A stretch of 21,215 nt of DNA, taken from positions 1 through 21,215 of the IMG/VR virus record IMGVR_UViG_3300032516_000233; one strand, written 5' to 3'. Below the pieces are notes generated by a model that saw nothing but the letters and a program-made list of their open reading frames with translations, had not been told where the DNA came from and ran no database searches. This document shows positions 3,484 to 14,970 of the stretch, in pieces; the first letter of the stretch is position 1; the number at the start of each line of letters is the position of its first letter. The position numbers and the translations under genes are program-made. The DNA comes from a virus.

Positions 3484-4017
3484 ATGGCGCGCCAATATTT
3501 TCAGGATGGACCCTTCCTCGATCCTCCCGTGGCGTCAGGGACGCCGCTCGTCTCGACGAGCATTGAGCCGCTCTGGGTGGCGCTGACGTACACCCCTATC
3601 TACCCAAACGACGCGAAGGCGGGGAAGATTTACTGCGTGCGCGCTGGCGGCATCATGTCGACTGGCGCGTCAGGCACTTTGATCATCACGCCGCTGTTGA
3701 CGGCGACTGCGTTGGGCGTCTCTCAGACCGTGACGGTGCCGATCAACATGACGGCCGTGCCCTGGTTTCTTGAGTTCGATCTCGTCTGGCGGACGATTGG
3801 CGGAGCGGGCGCCAGCTCAACCTGCATCGGCACTGGCTACTTTGCGACGGCTCCGTTTACCTCAGCGCCCGCGGCCGGGATCGCATGCGTGATTCCGTTC
3901 GGCGGGACGCTGGCGACGGTGGATGCGACGATCATTGAGGCCATCGGAATCTCAAAGACCTTGAGCGTGGCCGGGTCGATGACGCTCCAATATGTCTACT
4001 GCTTCTCACGGAACTGA
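3484..4017 (+). CDS. Beta-rich virion protein, copy A of tandem pair
   Basis: A 177-residue protein beginning two bases after the previous stop, with GTGAGGA upstream as a likely ribosome site. It is a clear paralog of the next gene: both have FxDGPxxDPxV-like N-termini, then IEPLWVALTYTPIYP, DAKAGK(I/V)YCVRAGGI, TLIITPLLTATALGVS, FDLV and RTI, TCIGTG, and finally IIEAIGISKTL near the C-terminus. The pattern of short Thr/Ala/Gly-rich strands is typical of phage head-decoration or fibre proteins. I recognise the family from phage genomes, but its function is not assigned. Isolated cysteines (YCVRAGG, TCIGTG) are conserved in both copies. Confidence 0.75.
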   Translation: MARQYFQDGPFLDPPVASGTPLVSTSIEPLWVALTYTPIYPNDAKAGKIYCVRAGGIMSTGASGTLIITPLLTATALGVSQTVTVPINMTAVPWFLEFDLVWRTIGGAGASSTCIGTGYFATAPFTSAPAAGIACVIPFGGTLATVDATIIEAIGISKTLSVAGSMTLQYVYCFSRN

Positions 4018-4019
4018 GT

Positions 4020-4553
4020 ATGCGATCACTTTACGGAGACGGGCCGTACGTCGATCCACAGGTCGGTGATTACGGGCCGCTGACCGCGCTCACCATCGAG
4101 CCCTTGTGGGTCGCCTTGACGTACACGCCGATCTATCCAGCCGATGCGAAGGCCGGAAAGGTGTACTGCGTTCGGGCCGGCGGCATCATCACGACGTCTG
4201 CGTCGGCCTCGACCCTGATCATCACACCGCTGTTGACGGCCACCGCGCTCGGGGTGTCGCTCACCCATACGCTTCCGGTCAGTTTGTCCAACGTGGCCTG
4301 GCGACTCAAGTTTGACCTCGTGATCCGGACCATCGCGGCCGGTGCGGCGTCGACCTGTATTGGAACGGGGATCTTCGTGACCGCGCCGAAAGCGAGTGCG
4401 CCCACGGCTGGCCAGGGCCAAGTCCTCACGTTCGGTGGGACGTCGGCCACGGTGGACTTCACGATCATCGAGGCCATCGGGATCAGTAAAACCTTGGCCG
4501 GCAACGCGGGGTCGGTGACGACCCAGTATTGCTACATGTTCGCGCGGAACTAG
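4020..4553 (+). CDS. Beta-rich virion protein, copy B of tandem pair
   Basis: Exactly the same length (177 residues) as the preceding gene and alignable with it nearly end to end, so the two arose by tandem duplication. Shared blocks include IEPLWVALTYTPIYP, AGKVYCVRAGGI, TLIITPLLTATALGVS and FGGTSATVDFTIIEAIGISKTL. It starts at ATG 4020, two bases after the upstream stop, with only a weak ribosome site, so reinitiation is likely. The two copies differ most in the N-terminal 25 residues and around 95-140. A role as a virion surface protein is inferred. Whether both are incorporated or one is an assembly variant cannot be read from sequence. Confidence 0.75.
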   Translation: MRSLYGDGPYVDPQVGDYGPLTALTIEPLWVALTYTPIYPADAKAGKVYCVRAGGIITTSASASTLIITPLLTATALGVSLTHTLPVSLSNVAWRLKFDLVIRTIAAGAASTCIGTGIFVTAPKASAPTAGQGQVLTFGGTSATVDFTIIEAIGISKTLAGNAGSVTTQYCYMFARN

Positions 4554-4557
4554 ACCG

Positions 4558-4902
4558 ATGCCAGGACGACCCGGACGTGGACAGGTGCAGCCGTCGCCCT
4601 GGGCGAATAGCCCCACGGGGCCGAAATCGACCGTCTCACAGGACGGGTACAATCCCTATGTCGACGTGTCCTATCACCTGGGCGACATCACAAAAGACGC
4701 GGCAGGGACCGTGCTTCCTGGGGCCACCGTGCGACTGTTCCGAACAGACGATAACGTGCTTCAACAAGTCGTCGTGTCCGACGCGAATGGGGCGTACTCG
4801 TTCAACGTGCCACCGGGTGTGTCGTTCTTCGTCGTGGCCTACAAAGCGGGCGGTACGGATGTGGCTGGAACATCGGTCAACACCCTAACGGGAGCCGTGT
4901 GA
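4558..4902 (+). CDS. Carboxypeptidase-regulatory-like beta-sandwich protein
   Basis: A 114-residue protein. The first 45 residues are Pro/Gly-rich and polar. Residues of about 48-112 match the carboxypeptidase regulatory-like fold, a seven-strand Ig-type sandwich: a GTVLPGATVRLF strand pair, then VVVSDANGAYSFNVPPG (the typical D-x-x-G-x-Y/F motif), then FFVVAYKAGGTDVAGTS. This domain is common on virion surfaces and bacterial exoproteins, where it acts as a binding or stabilising module rather than an enzyme. It sits in the block between portal and protease, and its stop overlaps the next start (GTGA). A surface decoration role is inferred. Confidence 0.75.
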   Translation: MPGRPGRGQVQPSPWANSPTGPKSTVSQDGYNPYVDVSYHLGDITKDAAGTVLPGATVRLFRTDDNVLQQVVVSDANGAYSFNVPPGVSFFVVAYKAGGTDVAGTSVNTLTGAV

Positions 4903-5747
4903 GCACGTTCCTGTATCCCGGCGAATCGAATCCGGCCACGGTGAAGCTGTCGGACCCAACCGTCCTGCGCGGCGGCGGTGTCAACGCTGAGGCAACGCCA
5001 GCTGGGGTCTCGGCTGCACTTGCGGTTGGTTCGGCGGTAAGCACAGGCGGGGCCGCCATCGAGCCGGTCGGCGTCTCGGCTGGTGCGGATGTCGGCACGC
5101 CGGGAGCGTCTGGTGCCGCCCAGGTATCCCCAGTGGGCGTCGAAGTCGTGAGCGCCGTCGGGACGGTAGACGCGACCGCGGCCGCCGTCGTCGAGCCCTC
5201 CGGTGTGGCTGCCGTGGCCTCCGTGGGCGATCCGGCAGCGACCGGCGGCGCGCGCGCGCTCCCTGATGGCGTCTCGATGGTCGCTGCGATCGGCGTGGCG
5301 GTCGCGACCGGCGATACCGGAACGGGTGACGCCACCGCCTATCCGGCCGGCGTTGAAGCGACCGTGGCGGTTGGGGCGGCCGCGGCGACGGGCGATGCTC
5401 TGGCCGAACCGCATGGCGTCGAATTGGTCTCTGCCGTAGGGACGGCCGTCGCCTCCACAGACGCGGTGGTCGTCGCTCCGCCCGTCGCGGTATCTGGCGG
5501 GTACGGTGGCGGCAGCATTCGCATCGGACCCGTCAAGGCAAAGAAACGTCTCGTCCGGGTGGACGCGACCGCCTACCCCCGCGGCGTCGAGATGCTGGTG
5601 GCCGTGGGGCAGGCGGTGGCGAGCGGCAGCGCCAACGTCTCACCGCGCGCCCCGAGTGCGCTGTCGGTCAGCGTGAGCCGCGCACAGGCGCGTGACACGC
5701 GCAACCTCACCTGGGAACAAATTGCGGTTCTCGCAGAGGCAGCATGA
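4899..5747 (+). CDS. Ala/Val/Gly-rich repeat protein (virion fibre or decoration)
   Basis: A 282-residue protein starting at GTG 4899 in a GTGA overlap with the upstream stop. Residues of about 28-190 consist of seven degenerate units of roughly 20-26 residues with the pattern P-x-G-V-x(4-5)-V/A-V/I-G-x(6-8)-A, for example PAGVSAALAVG, PVGVEVVSAVG and PHGVELVSAVG. An eighth unit (PRGVEMLVAVG) follows a spacer of about 45 residues that includes a Gly-rich stretch and a basic stretch (VKAKKR). The C-terminus changes to a helical segment (LTWEQIAVLAEAA). Repeats of this P-x-G-V type are seen in phage structural proteins, where they probably stack as beta units. No catalytic motif is present. Copy number and binding partner are unknown. 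Confidence 0.72.
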   Translation: MSTFLYPGESNPATVKLSDPTVLRGGGVNAEATPAGVSAALAVGSAVSTGGAAIEPVGVSAGADVGTPGASGAAQVSPVGVEVVSAVGTVDATAAAVVEPSGVAAVASVGDPAATGGARALPDGVSMVAAIGVAVATGDTGTGDATAYPAGVEATVAVGAAAATGDALAEPHGVELVSAVGTAVASTDAVVVAPPVAVSGGYGGGSIRIGPVKAKKRLVRVDATAYPRGVEMLVAVGQAVASGSANVSPRAPSALSVSVSRAQARDTRNLTWEQIAVLAEAA

Positions 5748-9331: not shown

Positions 9332-9808
9332 ATGTATTCAGGGCCTACTCCCGGCGCGAGCGTCATCACCGACATCGGCAAGGGATTCCGGGCGACTCGG
9401 GCGACGGACACCTTGCCGCAGACCGCCGAGGAAGCGATCTTCACGGTCTCCGGGGGCCGCGTGTTCATCACGCGGTTCTTCGGGGAAGTCACCGATACGA
9501 TCTCGGCCACGGACCCACAACTGAGCATCACGACGGCGCCCACCACTGGAACCGCCGTTGTGTTGGCCTCGACTGTGGATAGCAAGAGCGCGGAGATCGG
9601 CGGGTTCCTGTCGGTCGAGGGCGACGGGTCCGCGCTGGTCCTGTCGCTGGCGGGGGCGATCCTCGGGACGGCGGTGCCCTGCAACTGCATCGTGGCAGTG
9701 GGCAGCATTGTCCTCAAGTCGCTGGCCAGCCAGACGGGTTCGATGAAGTGGTTCCTGACGTATTTCCCGCTCGATCTCGGCGCGGCCGTGGTCGGGACAT
9801 CCGCGTGA
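9332..9808 (+). CDS. Virion protein, copy A of second tandem pair
   Basis: A 158-residue protein with a strong ribosome site (AGGGGAGG) 5-12 bases upstream. It is a paralog of the following gene. Shared blocks are ATRATDTLPQT/ARATAALPQS, a FTVxGGRVxxTxxFGEVT core, a TPTTGT-like turn, SxEIGGFL, LxxSLAGA and xGxMKWxxxYxPLDxGA near the C-terminus. The last block is typical of a recurrent, uncharacterised phage family encoded near capsid genes. The fold appears to be an all-beta sandwich. A capsid surface role is inferred from position, strand pattern and the strong translation signal. Confidence 0.75.
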   Translation: MYSGPTPGASVITDIGKGFRATRATDTLPQTAEEAIFTVSGGRVFITRFFGEVTDTISATDPQLSITTAPTTGTAVVLASTVDSKSAEIGGFLSVEGDGSALVLSLAGAILGTAVPCNCIVAVGSIVLKSLASQTGSMKWFLTYFPLDLGAAVVGTSA

Positions 9809-9824
9809 GGGGAGTGAGCACACC

Positions 9825-10283
9825 ATGAATGACGACGCCTCACGCGACATGCTCACGACCATGTATCTCGGGTATCACGTCGCCCGAGCCACGGCTGCAT
9901 TGCCACAGTCGACGAATCACGCGCTGTTCACCGTCGCCGGGGGCCGCGTCGAAGTGACGCTGCTCTTTGGCGAGGTGACGACGGCGATCCAGAACAGTGA
10001 CCCGGTGCTGTCGGTCAACTCGACGCCGACGCCCGGCACGGTGCTGGCGCTCGGGGCCACCGTGGACACAACCTCGCTGGAGATCGGCGGATTCCTACGT
10101 GTCGTCGGGGCGGGCAACCTGGTCAAGTCGTTGGCCGGTGCCGCGCTGTCCACGACCTACTGCTCGTTCGTGGTGCCGATCGGCACGATCCGACTCGCCG
10201 GCGGAGCCAGCAAGCAGGGCAACATGAAGTGGGACGTGTTCTACAAACCACTCGACGAGGGCGCGACGGTGACTGCGGCGTAG
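9825..10283 (+). CDS. Virion protein, copy B of second tandem pair
   Basis: A 152-residue paralog of the preceding gene with the same core (LFTVAGGRVEVTLLFGEVT, TLEIGGFL-type strand, NMKWDVFYKPLDEGATV). The main differences are the N-terminal 15 residues and a shorter middle loop. GGGGAG lies upstream of ATG 9825. Both copies keep the complete fold and neither shows a frame break, so both are probably used. Divergence of the N-termini could mean different attachment points on the particle; this is inference. Confidence 0.75.
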   Translation: MNDDASRDMLTTMYLGYHVARATAALPQSTNHALFTVAGGRVEVTLLFGEVTTAIQNSDPVLSVNSTPTPGTVLALGATVDTTSLEIGGFLRVVGAGNLVKSLAGAALSTTYCSFVVPIGTIRLAGGASKQGNMKWDVFYKPLDEGATVTAA

Positions 10284-10309: not shown

Positions 10310-10957
10310 ATGCCAGCACAGTTTGTTGGTTTGCGGAACGACCCGGACGGCGTGACCGGCAACGATGCCGACCGGACGAGCCGAGACGGCGCCAAGGTCG
10401 TCACGCAGGCGCATGGCAAGTATCTCGAATCGACCACGCGCAGCCGGGTCTATACCGGCATGTCGGCCTCGACCGGAAATGTCTTGACCGTGCCGGCGAC
10501 CACGGGCGGGCACCCCTCGCTGTGGAACCCGTCAGACAGCGGGCGGTACGTCAGCATCATCCGGCTCGTACTCTCCTACGTCAGCGGGACGAATGCGCCA
10601 GGCTCGATTGAGTGGGCGTACACGCTGGCGACGGGCGCAGCTGTGGCAACGGCCGCACCGATCTTGACTTACACCGTCGTGTCGCCCGTTGGGGTACTCG
10701 GCGGGCCGCTCGACAACAAGGCGAAGTGGAGTCCGACCACGAACACGTTTACGGCCGCGCCGGTATTCCTGCGACCGACCGGGTTCTCGCTGGTGACGGG
10801 CGCGGACGCCAGCGCCCTCGCGCCGTTCGTGCTCATCGCCGAATACGACGGCGACTTCGTGCTGGCTCCAGGCACGGCGATTTCGTTGTGCAGCCAGGCT
10901 GCGACGACGACGGCCGGATTCCAGGTGTCGGTGACGTGGGAAGAAGCGCCGAAGTAA
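10310..10957 (+). CDS. Virion protein, copy A of third tandem pair
   Basis: A 215-residue protein with AGGAGA upstream of ATG 10310. It pairs with the next gene over its whole length. Conserved blocks are MPAQ(F/Y), GLRND, DADRT, RDGAKVV, HGKYL, RVYTG, GGHP(S/T)LWNPSDS, SIIRL, IEWA, APILT, NTFTAAPVFLRP, YDGDFVLAPGTA and TWEE. The LWNPSDSG / IIRL motif and the late YDGDFVLAPGTA motif recall small virion proteins that form beta-jelly-roll-like trimers, but this is only resemblance. No enzyme motif is present. It is likely a head surface protein given its location after the capsid gene. Confidence 0.75.
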   Translation: MPAQFVGLRNDPDGVTGNDADRTSRDGAKVVTQAHGKYLESTTRSRVYTGMSASTGNVLTVPATTGGHPSLWNPSDSGRYVSIIRLVLSYVSGTNAPGSIEWAYTLATGAAVATAAPILTYTVVSPVGVLGGPLDNKAKWSPTTNTFTAAPVFLRPTGFSLVTGADASALAPFVLIAEYDGDFVLAPGTAISLCSQAATTTAGFQVSVTWEEAPK

Positions 10958-10970
10958 AGGAGCTGCAGAG

Positions 10971-11615
10971 ATGCCCGCACAGTACATCGGCCTGCGCAAC
11001 GACCAGGACGGATTGAGCACGAGCGATGCCGACCGGACCACGCGCGACGGCGCCAAGGTCGTCACGGATTCGCACGGCAAGTATCTCCAGCAGGCGATCA
11101 ACGGCCGAGTCTATACCGGCGTTGGAGCCTCGACCGGCATCGCCCTGATTGCGCCGGCGGCAGGCGGAGGGCACCCGACGCTCTGGAACCCCAGTGACAG
11201 CGACGTGTATCTCAGCATCATTCGGCTCGAAATGGGGCACCGCACGGGCACGCACAAGCCGGGCGGGATTGAGTGGGCGTCTACGCTGAACACCGGGGCG
11301 TCTGTGGCCACGGGCGCGCCGATCTTGACGTTCACGGTCGTGGCGCCGATCGCGCTCGCCGGTGGGCTCCAGAACAAGGGGCAGTGGTCACCGACCGTGA
11401 ACACCTTCACCGCGGCGCCCGTGTTTCTCCGGCCGGCCGGCATTGGCTGTCTCACGCTCGCGGCGGCCACGGATGCGGCTCCGTACACGATGCGCGTCCA
11501 GTACGACGGCGACTTCGTGCTGGCGCCGGGCACGGCGGTTTCGCTGTGCTTCCAAGCGGCCACGACCACGGCGGTCTTCCAAGTGGCGGTGACGTGGGAA
11601 GAGTTGGCGTACTGA
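10971..11615 (+). CDS. Virion protein, copy B of third tandem pair
   Basis: A 214-residue paralog of the preceding gene, about 60 percent identical by eye and with long shared DNA stretches, so the duplication is recent compared with the other pairs. AAGGAG sits seven bases before ATG 10971. It keeps every conserved block, with one residue deleted around position 132 (LGGPL against AGG-L). The most divergent parts are residues of about 36-65 and 150-175. There is no sign of decay. It is probably a second capsid surface component. Confidence 0.75.
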   Translation: MPAQYIGLRNDQDGLSTSDADRTTRDGAKVVTDSHGKYLQQAINGRVYTGVGASTGIALIAPAAGGGHPTLWNPSDSDVYLSIIRLEMGHRTGTHKPGGIEWASTLNTGASVATGAPILTFTVVAPIALAGGLQNKGQWSPTVNTFTAAPVFLRPAGIGCLTLAAATDAAPYTMRVQYDGDFVLAPGTAVSLCFQAATTTAVFQVAVTWEELAY

Positions 11616-12314: not shown

Positions 12315-13250
12315 ATGGCGCTCTCGCTCGTAACGCCTGCCGCGACGGAATGCCTCACCATCTCCGAGGTCAAGCAACATCTCCGTCTCGATACCTCTAA
12401 CGGGGAGCCGGCACCGACCGCTCCCACTGTCGCTCTGGTGGTCATCGCGGGCAATCTCACGGCAGGCGTGCATCGCTGGCTGTGGGTGGCCCGCACCGCG
12501 GACGGCGCCACCGAAGCCGGGGCGGTCTCTGCGCCCCTGACGACCATTCTCGCCACACATGGCAAGGCCACGGTCACGAAGCCGCTCGGCGGGAGCGCAG
12601 TCACCTACATGGACCTGTACCGCACCGCGGCGGGTGGGACCACCTATCTGCTCGTGGCGGCGACGGCGAATGATGGCGCGACCTACACCGACAACATCGC
12701 GGACGGGTCGCTCGGGGCACAAGCGCCGACGACGAACACCACGGCCGATCCTGAACTCACGTCCTGGCTGACGGCCGCGCGGCAGTACTGCGAGACGTTC
12801 ACGCATCGCGCGCTGATTACCCAGACCTGGGATCTGAAGCTCGACGGGTTTCCATGCGGTGAGGCGATCTGGCTGCCGAAGCCGCCCCTGATTTCGATCA
12901 CCACGGCCACCGGGTTGATTGTCACCTACACCGCCACGGCTGGCACGCTCACGACGTGGGCGGAAGCGAACTACACCGTGGATGCTCCTGCCGGGCCTAC
13001 AGCGGCTCCTGGGCGCATTGTTCCGGCGTACGGCGTGGTCTATCCCTCGACCCGCGATGTGCCCAACGCGGTCAACGTGCGCTTCGTGGCGGGCTATGGG
13101 GCCGCGAGTGCGGTGCCGGCGGGGATTAAGGCGGCGATCAAGTTGCTCATCGGGGCCTGGTGGAATCAGAGAGAGGCCGTTGGCGCGGCGAACCTGGCCG
13201 AGACTCCGATGGGTGTCGGGGCGCTCCTTTGGCCTTTTAAGAGTTTTTGA
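12315..13250 (+). CDS. Head-tail connector (gp6-like) with inserted Ig-like module
   Basis: The adaptor ring that sits below the portal in the neck. Start ATG 12315 (GAGGTG upstream) gives 311 residues, far more than the roughly 100-200 of usual gp6-like connectors. The two ends fit the family: residues 13-26 (CLTISEVKQHLRLD), then about 146-311 with SWLTAARQYCETFTHRALITQTW, LPKPPLISI, RIVPAYGVVYP, NAVNVRFVAGYG, IKLLIGAWWNQREA and PMGVGALLWP. Between the first helix and the SWLTAARQYCE helix lies an extra module of about 115 residues (about 29-144), which is not part of the family. It matches a module in the next-but-one gene. The stop overlaps the head-closure start by one base. Confidence 0.9.
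   Translation: MALSLVTPAATECLTISEVKQHLRLDTSNGEPAPTAPTVALVVIAGNLTAGVHRWLWVARTADGATEAGAVSAPLTTILATHGKATVTKPLGGSAVTYMDLYRTAAGGTTYLLVAATANDGATYTDNIADGSLGAQAPTTNTTADPELTSWLTAARQYCETFTHRALITQTWDLKLDGFPCGEAIWLPKPPLISITTATGLIVTYTATAGTLTTWAEANYTVDAPAGPTAAPGRIVPAYGVVYPSTRDVPNAVNVRFVAGYGAASAVPAGIKAAIKLLIGAWWNQREAVGAANLAETPMGVGALLWPFKSF
12399..12746 (+). other. Ig/FN3-like module inserted in the connector gene
   Basis: This codes for residues of about 29-144 of the connector. Key features are an AGNLTAGVHRW strand, a DGATEAGAVS turn, a DLYRTAAGGTTYLLVAATAND strand pair (in parts) and a YTDNIADGSLGAQAP end. The fibre-like gene holds the same order (DDGAHLYKVTF, GETELGTVS, RKIYRTKAG, YFLVVTLANN, DASLGSDD). 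Boundaries are approximate and were set where connector homology stops and resumes. Confidence 0.75.
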
Positions 13251-13627
13251 TGAGCATCGGCAACAAGGTCAAGCGCGTGCGCATCGAGCAGGCCGTCCTC
13301 ACGACGGACGCGCAGGGTGGGCACTCGACGGCCTGGACGCTGCGCTGTGTGGTTTGGGCACACGAACGACCCCTGAGCGGACGTGAGGCGATGCAGGCGG
13401 CGCAACTCACGGCCACCTTGAGCAGCGTCTGGGAAATCCACTACCGCACGGACATCGCGATCACGGATCGGATTCGGGTGGGCACGCGCGTGCTGAGTAT
13501 CGAAGCCATTATTGACCCGACGGATACGCGGAGGGAACTGCACCTCTCGTGTAGTGAGGTGCAGGGCGCCGTGGCCGAAACGATAGTCCCAGTATTGCCT
13601 TGGGTTCAGGCGGGGTGGATGTCGTGA
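13250..13627 (+). CDS. Head-closure / head-tail joining protein
   Basis: A 125-residue protein of the SPP1 gp16 / phage head-tail joining type, which plugs the connector after packaging and forms the platform for the tail. The start is ATG 13250 in a TGATG overlap with the connector stop; an in-frame TTG at 13247 is less likely. Family features are the N-terminal RVRIEQAVLTTDAQGGHSTAW strand pair (in parts), a Trp-Ala stretch (VVWAHERPLSGREAMQAAQL) and a C-terminal beta segment (ITDRIRVGTRVLSIEAIIDPTD), in the normal order and near the usual length. The next start lies inside its last codons (GTGA). Confidence 0.85.
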   Translation: MSIGNKVKRVRIEQAVLTTDAQGGHSTAWTLRCVVWAHERPLSGREAMQAAQLTATLSSVWEIHYRTDIAITDRIRVGTRVLSIEAIIDPTDTRRELHLSCSEVQGAVAETIVPVLPWVQAGWMS

Positions 13628-14970
13628 GCCTGAAGCATCGATTCGAGAGCGAGGCGGTTGATGCGGCTGACACGACGAAGCTGCGCCCGTCAGACTGGGG
13701 CTCGATCTTCACGGACTACGTGGCTAATCCAACGCACGTGTTTAGTGGGGGCGTCGAAGGCTCGTTGCTTTTGTATTCCGTGGCGGCTCCCGACAAGGTG
13801 GCATGGCTGGCGGCTCCTGTGGCGGGGCAAATCCTGGTCTCGAATGGGATCGGCGCCGCACCTATCTGGGGTGGGAATGCGCTTTTTGTGAATCCCACAA
13901 CAGGGGAGGTTGGCATCGGAACGACAAGTCCAGTAAGTGGATCCGCGCTAACTTCTGGTGGGAACCTGGCCTTTCGTTTGGTCATTGCCCCTGGTGCACT
14001 GACAGGCGGCGCGCCGACAGCAGGCGGCGGCGTTGACGATGGGGCGCATCTATATAAGGTGACGTTTGTTACGGCGGTTGGTGAGACTGAACTCGGTACG
14101 GTCTCGTCTGTCGTGACCACGGGCGGCGGCAATAATACCATCCCGCTTAGCGCGATTCCCATCTCATCTGATCCTCGGGTGACGGGTCGGAAGATCTATC
14201 GAACCAAGGCGGGTACGGTTACCTATTTCCTCGTCGTGACTCTCGCGAACAACTCAGTTACGACGTGCATCGATGCGGCCTCTGATGCGAGCCTGGGTTC
14301 TGACGATTGGATCAACCGCAATAACTTGACCGCGGGCGTGATCACGGCCACGGATGTCGCGACCTATCCGATCGGCATTGCCTCAACCAACAACACAGGA
14401 TGGGGCAAGGCCGTACTAAACGCGAACAGGCGGGGGGCGCATCTGGCAGCGTTCGCAGTCTACAGTCTATTAAACAACAGGGATGGGGATAGCAACAGTG
14501 GGTTTGGCGCGAATACGCTCCGGATGAACGTGGATGGGAACTCGAACACGGCCGGGGGGACGGCCGCCCTCTATTCCAACGTCGACGGGAGTGGGAATGC
14601 TGCTTGGGGAGTGAGTGCCGGGACGTTCAATTTGGCTGATGGTGGCACGTTTCTTGGGACCCTCACTGGATTCAGCACCACGACGCAGGGTGGCGGGGTC
14701 TTTGTGGGGTATGGCGCTGGCTACCACGAAACCGCAGCGATGAAGCTGTTCATCGACAATGCCCTTCGGGCGAGCGAAGCCGATGGGCGAGCAAAGGCGC
14801 TGATCTATGGCATCTTCAACGCGGCCACGGCAAGCCAGGTGCTGGCCTTTAACGCGGCGACTATCGGTATGGTGTACCTGCCGACCTATGCAGACGAAGC
14901 CGCAGCGGCGGGCCTAGCGAGCGGGACGCTTTATCGGTCGGCTACGGGCGAACTACGGATCAAGCTGTAA
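13624..14970 (+). CDS. Fibre-like protein with Ig-like module and YadA-head-like repeats
   Basis: I choose GTG 13624 (GTGA overlap with the upstream stop), giving 448 residues; an earlier in-frame TTG at 13600 is possible. The domains in order are: an N-terminal attachment region (1-60), the NPTTGEVGIGTTSP motif (90-103) frequent in phage fibres, an Ig-like module (about 121-228) related to that in the connector, and Asn/Gly-rich units (about 285-365; GDSNSGFGANTL, GNSNTAGGTAAL, GSGNAAWGVSAG) that fit the left-handed beta-roll of YadA-type trimeric heads. The C-terminal LPTYADEAAAAG...GTLYRSATGELRI pattern is common at the ends of phage fibres. Base use is less GC-rich than the neighbours. 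A location in the neck suggests whisker-type or head-tail fibres. Confidence 0.8.
   Translation: MSLKHRFESEAVDAADTTKLRPSDWGSIFTDYVANPTHVFSGGVEGSLLLYSVAAPDKVAWLAAPVAGQILVSNGIGAAPIWGGNALFVNPTTGEVGIGTTSPVSGSALTSGGNLAFRLVIAPGALTGGAPTAGGGVDDGAHLYKVTFVTAVGETELGTVSSVVTTGGGNNTIPLSAIPISSDPRVTGRKIYRTKAGTVTYFLVVTLANNSVTTCIDAASDASLGSDDWINRNNLTAGVITATDVATYPIGIASTNNTGWGKAVLNANRRGAHLAAFAVYSLLNNRDGDSNSGFGANTLRMNVDGNSNTAGGTAALYSNVDGSGNAAWGVSAGTFNLADGGTFLGTLTGFSTTTQGGGVFVGYGAGYHETAAMKLFIDNALRASEADGRAKALIYGIFNAATASQVLAFNAATIGMVYLPTYADEAAAAGLASGTLYRSATGELRIKL

Follow-up and report, generated by a model that had tools for sequence, protein, structure and literature searches.

The window, by which we mean the whole stretch of DNA analysed here, is a contig of 21,215 bases from an uncultivated virus. 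It encodes a portal protein (PF04860), an HK97-type capsid protein (PF05065, 7286–8818) and, further along from the capsid gene and in this order, a protein of 311 amino acids, the head closure protein Hc1 (PF05521) and a gp17-like tail-completion protein. Portal, capsid, head closure and tail-completion neighbours identify the region as the head–tail region of a tailed phage; in solved phage necks, relatives of Hc1 sit stacked on adaptors. The features that concern us are the following:

12315–13250, plus strand: head–tail adaptor (connector) gene, 311 aa, a long form with an inserted Ig-like domain (ORF; TIGR02215; phrog_442; fold match to Rcc01688)
12360–12386, plus strand: helix alpha0 of the adaptor, residues 16–24, inside TISEVKQHLR (helix predicted at 16–23; aligns to the short form L024)
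12414–12740, plus strand: inserted domain, residues ~34–142, predicted to be an Ig-like beta-sandwich (no counterpart in L024 and other short relatives; a separate all-beta domain in the AlphaFold2 model; matches to SPO1 Gp6.1 and the phi-crAss001 muzzle)
12750–13247, plus strand: adaptor core, comprising helix alpha1 (146–163), the beta attachment region (170–259) and helices 269–284 and 299–308 (AlphaFold2 secondary structure; structural alignments to Rcc01688)
13247–13627, plus strand: head closure protein Hc1 (PF05521, 5.7e-20; phrog_25, 1.7e-14)
14017–14304, plus strand: second copy of the Ig-like module, residues 140–235 of the protein of ORF 13600–14970 (hhalign probability 99.1%, E 8.9e-19; hmmsearch 89 bits)

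The 311-residue protein scores 82.1 bits against the curated adaptor family TIGR02215, for which the cut-off is 39, and matches the head–tail adaptor family phrog_442 (7.8e-17) and, by sequence, Rcc01688 (6TBA; 1.8e-5), the adaptor of the Rhodobacter gene transfer agent, while its PF05135 score of 21.2 falls at the cut-off. Besides passing the family cut-off, it has the fold of the class (alpha0, alpha1, beta attachment region and tube helices) and is encoded beside the head closure gene and downstream of the capsid gene. It is thus a head–tail adaptor of the HK97 gp6 / SPP1 gp15 / Rcc01688 class and, by analogy with RcGTA and SPP1, would be expected to form a dodecamer and to bind the portal by a C-terminal hook. 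The significant adaptor matches are all confined to the part of the protein after about residue 110; the N-terminal helix and a stretch of some 115 residues fall outside them.

It had been suggested in the initial annotation that this is a gp6-like connector split by an inserted module, its first two helices being normally only a few residues apart, and on both points the present analysis agrees. The ORF occupies 12315–13250 and both helices are present, alpha0 (TISEVKQHLRLD) and alpha1 (ELTSWLTAARQYCETF) lying ~120 residues apart. Among the fetched loci in which the alpha0 motif was found, most short relatives have a spacing of 8 from this motif to the start of the core, the short form L024 has 13 and nearly all long forms have 122–127. 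The core of L024 is 77% identical to that of the window protein, with only a dozen residues between alpha0 and alpha1. An insert of ~110 residues is therefore real, although the bounds first proposed (29–144) are better placed at ~34–142. When the same architecture was sought in related phages, the long form was found to be encoded by more than 70 viral contigs, so the insert cannot be put down to chance or to misassembly.

Short forms were also sought among close homologues and were found (L024, L099), which disposes of the idea that every homologue is long. That the short forms might be truncated ORFs was considered and rejected, except for L088, which begins at the end of its contig and was excluded from the recount. 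The L024 gene (L024:705-1310), with its spacing of 13 rather than 8, carries a DPSP tetrapeptide resembling the EPAP with which the insert of long forms begins; judged from this likeness, the tetrapeptide may be the scar left by deletion of a module.

To compare the whole protein with known connectors, we built an AlphaFold2 model with 62 related sequences (pLDDT 91.2, pTM 0.75). The strands of the insert (38–126) form a separate beta domain between alpha0 (16–23) and alpha1 (146–163). By VIA-align, model residues 1–311 align to Rcc01688 over 181/194 residues at 2.9 Å (Z 17.4), the insert being skipped, with 26–30% identity in structural alignments; the length of this alignment leaves no room for the insert, which places alpha0 and the core in their normal arrangement. 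The adaptors of T5 and DT57C match the model at Z ~11. The possibility that the inserted residues are part of the adaptor core fold, raised at the outset, is ruled out by the L024 alignment, by the model and by the structural match to Rcc01688 that passes over the insert.

Taken separately, residues 30–134 of the model match residues 282–399 of SPO1 Gp6.1 (Z 11.2, 2.2 Å, 101 residues) and residues 30–141 match residues 162–291 of the phi-crAss001 muzzle (Z 10.2, 108 residues). On the strength of these two matches, the second of them to the muzzle domain IG1, the modelled insert is an independent all-beta Ig-like sandwich of a known phage Ig-like fold. The module had been described as Ig/FN3-like: the Ig-like half of that description stands, but no Pfam match speaks for FN3: none of the classical Pfam Ig/FN3 families (Big_2, I-set, FN3) was among the matches of either the protein or a 14-member alignment of the insert. 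The module is represented in PHROGs of internal virion, major head and head closure proteins and in no Pfam family, and searches of PDB sequences with a profile of the module gave weak matches only. Alpha-latrotoxin, which appears in the list of structural matches, is another matching beta-sandwich, from which we draw no functional meaning.

The native core used alone recovered only two loci from a scan of viral contigs and a core alignment was used in its place. A second scan, in which the core only was used in order to avoid bias towards the insert, gave 80 loci: 62 short forms, 11 with the Ig module, six with another domain and one that is cut off; the sample is ranked by likeness to the window core and is not a census. 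Among 17 bacterial genome contigs two carry the Ig module, both from betaproteobacterial MAGs, and across 399 genomes of the same order as one of these MAGs the long form occurs only in that Sterolibacterium MAG, in two copies. This makes the betaproteobacteria a plausible host group for phages of this type. Besides its two long-form adaptors, the same MAG (L165 genome G001) has three further ORFs of adaptor-like type (295 aa), located on separate contigs. Among named phages, those recovered by similarity gave core matches only, with no Ig insert, and in the four whose genes were read out the connectors are of 187–221 residues. A tblastn search of named phages with native and consensus sequences of the module gave no match, a result to which the BLAST low-complexity filter may contribute. 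The long form thus occurs in many environmental phages, while every named phage record recovered by similarity lacks it.

On a tree of 158 core sequences, parsimony requires 19 changes for the three insert states and 17 for the Ig state, five of which are forced by strongly supported branches (first run); with the truncated L088 set aside, the Ig state versus its absence requires 16, a figure that is not a count of events because many of the deep branches are weak. Close pairs of long and short forms occur at separate places in the tree: L013/L020 and L099 (78% core identity), the window protein and L024 (77%), L114 and L116 (66%) and L093 and L085 (63%). Read from the core alignments and the tree, these data show that the Ig insert has been repeatedly gained or lost among relatives.

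Repeated gain and loss is what might be seen if the insert were a neutral passenger, a promiscuous module lodged in a tolerant loop with no selected role, and it also fits such a reading that the loop tolerates unrelated domains (see below) and that the module is found in unrelated proteins. Selection and conservation argue otherwise. In each of the 13 long-form pairs tested, the insert has a dN far lower than its dS, much as the core does, and by this measure the Ig-like insert is under strong purifying selection. It is also highly conserved across divergent cores: among long forms the mean pairwise identity is 67% in the insert against 45% in the core, with the insert higher in 98% of pairs, figures to be read with the proviso that the first scan partly chose its loci by insert motifs. 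We therefore disfavour the neutral reading, which we regard as improbable.

The Ig-like module is not the only domain to occupy this loop. In six relatives (L110, L112, L115, L138, L139 and L143) a different beta-rich domain of ~120 residues lies between alpha0 and alpha1, and profile comparison shows no relation between it and the Ig module. The core of L143 is 67% identical to that of the short form L111 and 59% identical to that of the Ig form L035. The alternative insert resembles phrog_5707 (3e-16) and the C-terminal part of the major tail protein family phrog_9522, and stand-alone relatives of it are encoded among the head genes of Klebsiella phage KA2-1 and Synechococcus phage S-CBS1. 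In phage BPP-1 the capsid carries Bbp16 as a cement protein of jellyroll fold (PMC3863775); L115 and its kin score 20.7 bits (E 5e-4) against the Bbp16 family PF21190, under the curated cut-off of 27.1, and a profile of the alternative insert finds the BPP-1 cement protein chain 3j4u_H at E 0.0019, which is suggestive only. An AlphaFold2 model of this form, built from six sequences, reached a pLDDT of 43, and the fold assignment of the alternative insert consequently rests on these weak profile matches. The likeness to Bbp16 (PDB 3J4U) concerns the six relatives and not the Ig module of the window, and Bbp16 is a separate capsid-binding protein rather than an inserted domain.

A broader proposal is that the alpha0–alpha1 loop of gp6-class adaptors serves uncultivated phages quite generally as an anchoring place for swappable beta domains that are unrelated to one another (Ig-like, Bbp16-like and perhaps more), giving twelve-valent neck decorations that would alter host contact or neck stability without change to the assembly machinery. 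We consider this proposal about as likely as not. A different insertion site in the adaptor family is seen in L191–L194, L196, L197 and L199, all from the order of the Sterolibacterium MAG, where ~70 residues separate the last core strand (AGYA) from the helix VPEGIKSWM; this insert is beta-rich in appearance, with the pattern LP.PL..GT.Y...TL..TPGG.AI.LTD.GSGT.

Where would the Ig-like domains lie in the assembled particle? RcGTA adaptors form a dodecamer on the portal, touching the capsid (PMC7296036), and in SPP1 helix alpha0 of gp15 swings by ~145 degrees on assembly to bridge neighbouring alpha1 helices at the periphery of the connector, the alpha0–alpha1 loop being a variable element in which gp15-like proteins differ (PMC9701221). 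The window adaptor would likewise cap the portal as a ring of twelve, as its solved relatives do, each chain carrying its Ig-like domain on two short linkers. Given a peripheral alpha0 and a variable loop, the domains should stand outside the ring, as the initial annotation had expected; by analogy with SPP1, all twelve would lie beside the portal vertex and leave the channel unblocked. Near relatives have no insert, or an unrelated beta domain, at this loop, so the insert is probably not needed for ring assembly.

The position of the insert does invite the thought that it controls assembly, limiting or timing the alpha0 swing needed for connector closure. Repositioning of alpha0 in SPP1 gp15 is essential for closing the connector tunnel (PMC9701221) and the insert falls exactly in that hinge. 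In related phages, however, the same site is occupied by unrelated domains or by a plain short loop, and the model has alpha0 where Rcc01688 has its own. We consider a role of this kind very unlikely, more so even than neutrality.

The explanation that we prefer, and hold with good confidence, is that the adaptor is interrupted in its alpha0–alpha1 loop by an independently folded and selected Ig-like domain, likely present as twelve peripheral accessory copies that are probably dispensable for ring assembly and that would serve either in adhesion, which is slightly favoured, or in reinforcement of the neck. As an accessory surface domain, the module could provide weak adhesion to glycans of the host surface or strengthen the junction of neck and capsid. 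For adhesion there are precedents: phage Douge has Ig-like domains that attach to glycans and to the surface of mycobacteria (PMC13033339), and in the lactococcal 936 phages carbohydrate-binding modules mounted on the neck bind host cells (PMC6669499). By such analogies, binding and decoration by the module, as first suggested, seem reasonable, and adhesion comes slightly ahead of stabilisation, although we do not claim it. The adhesion half is weakened by the roseophage R4C structure, whose authors considered a peripheral adaptor Ig-like domain near the head unlikely to act in adsorption and suggested local stability instead (PMC10276861). Conservation of the insert above that of the core is, moreover, unusual for a host-range adhesin.

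These last points lead to a purely structural alternative in which the insert gives the adaptor ring further contacts, either with the capsid vertex or from one adaptor to the next, and so stabilises the neck with no part in host binding. The R4C domain, for which local stability was proposed, contacts the capsid (PMC10276861), RcGTA adaptors already bind capsid subunits via attachment domains (PMC7296036), the alternative insert at the same loop resembles a capsid cement protein and high conservation of the insert would fit a contact surface. Yet the usual beta attachment region is kept in the core of the window adaptor, so contact with the capsid need not depend on the insert, and near relatives manage without one. 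The Ig module is also present in a second protein of this phage, which is better accommodated by general surface decoration than by a single dedicated contact. We judge this alternative possible and the most serious of the three considered, but on the whole doubtful.

It was initially proposed that no connector of this form had been described. This is too strong, since the R4C adaptor vBDshSR4C_004 has a peripheral Ig-like domain (PMC10276861) and the phi-crAss001 muzzle has an inserted one (PMC10172136), and the R4C precedent means that the general idea of an adaptor with a peripheral Ig-like domain is not new. In R4C, however, the domain is N-terminal (1–106) and is itself the attachment domain, whereas in the window adaptor it is inserted and the attachment region is kept; no sequence relation between the two domains could be detected. 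The muzzle domain (IG1 of gp44, residues 163–292) is similar and also inserted, between propeller blades, but gp44 is a tail-tip protein and not an adaptor, and the closest solved structure to the insert, residues 282–399 of SPO1 Gp6.1 (PDB 9vel), lies within a capsid protein. Of the adaptors themselves, Rcc01688 (g6 of the R. capsulatus gene transfer agent, PDB 6TBA/6TE8) belongs to the same sequence family, matches the window adaptor in fold throughout the core, N-terminal part included, and forms a ring on the portal that binds the stopper (PMC7296036), but unlike the window adaptor it has no domain between alpha0 and alpha1. SPP1 gp15 and HK97 gp6 share alpha0, alpha1 and the helical tube core; both are small, and their loop is short and bears no additional domain.

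The open-access papers searched describe neither a domain, Ig-like or otherwise, set into the alpha0–alpha1 loop of a gp6-class adaptor nor an exchange of unrelated domains in this loop. What appears to be new is therefore the swappable-domain site itself, apparently a recurrent mounting point for surface domains. Capsids, tail tubes and fibres of phages are already known to bear Ig-like domains. In the present case the carrier is an assembly ring of the neck, and the domain occupies one particular loop; this loop is a natural position in which a displayed domain is tolerated by the ring, presumably twelve times over. Because related adaptors exist with the Ig insert, without it or with another domain, such natural pairs make the role of phage Ig-like domains testable.

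The second copy of the module in the window lies in the protein of ORF 13600–14970, encoded between the head closure and tail-completion genes and a candidate neck or tail decoration protein. The module is also found in other proteins of other genomes, including two large ORFs, one in the phage of L004 (G005:C1:34082-35134) and one at G109:C135:13296-15704, whose proteins are of 1041 aa with partial copies and of 5463 aa with two copies. Elsewhere in the window, three tandem pairs of paralogous-looking small genes (3484–4553, 9332–10283 and 10310–11615) are candidates for head decoration proteins; one member of each pair was scanned and had no Pfam or PHROG family match. A small protein with a carboxypeptidase regulatory-like domain (PF13620) is encoded at 4558–4902, and the next gene (4899–5747) encodes a repeat-rich protein with recurring P.GV units.
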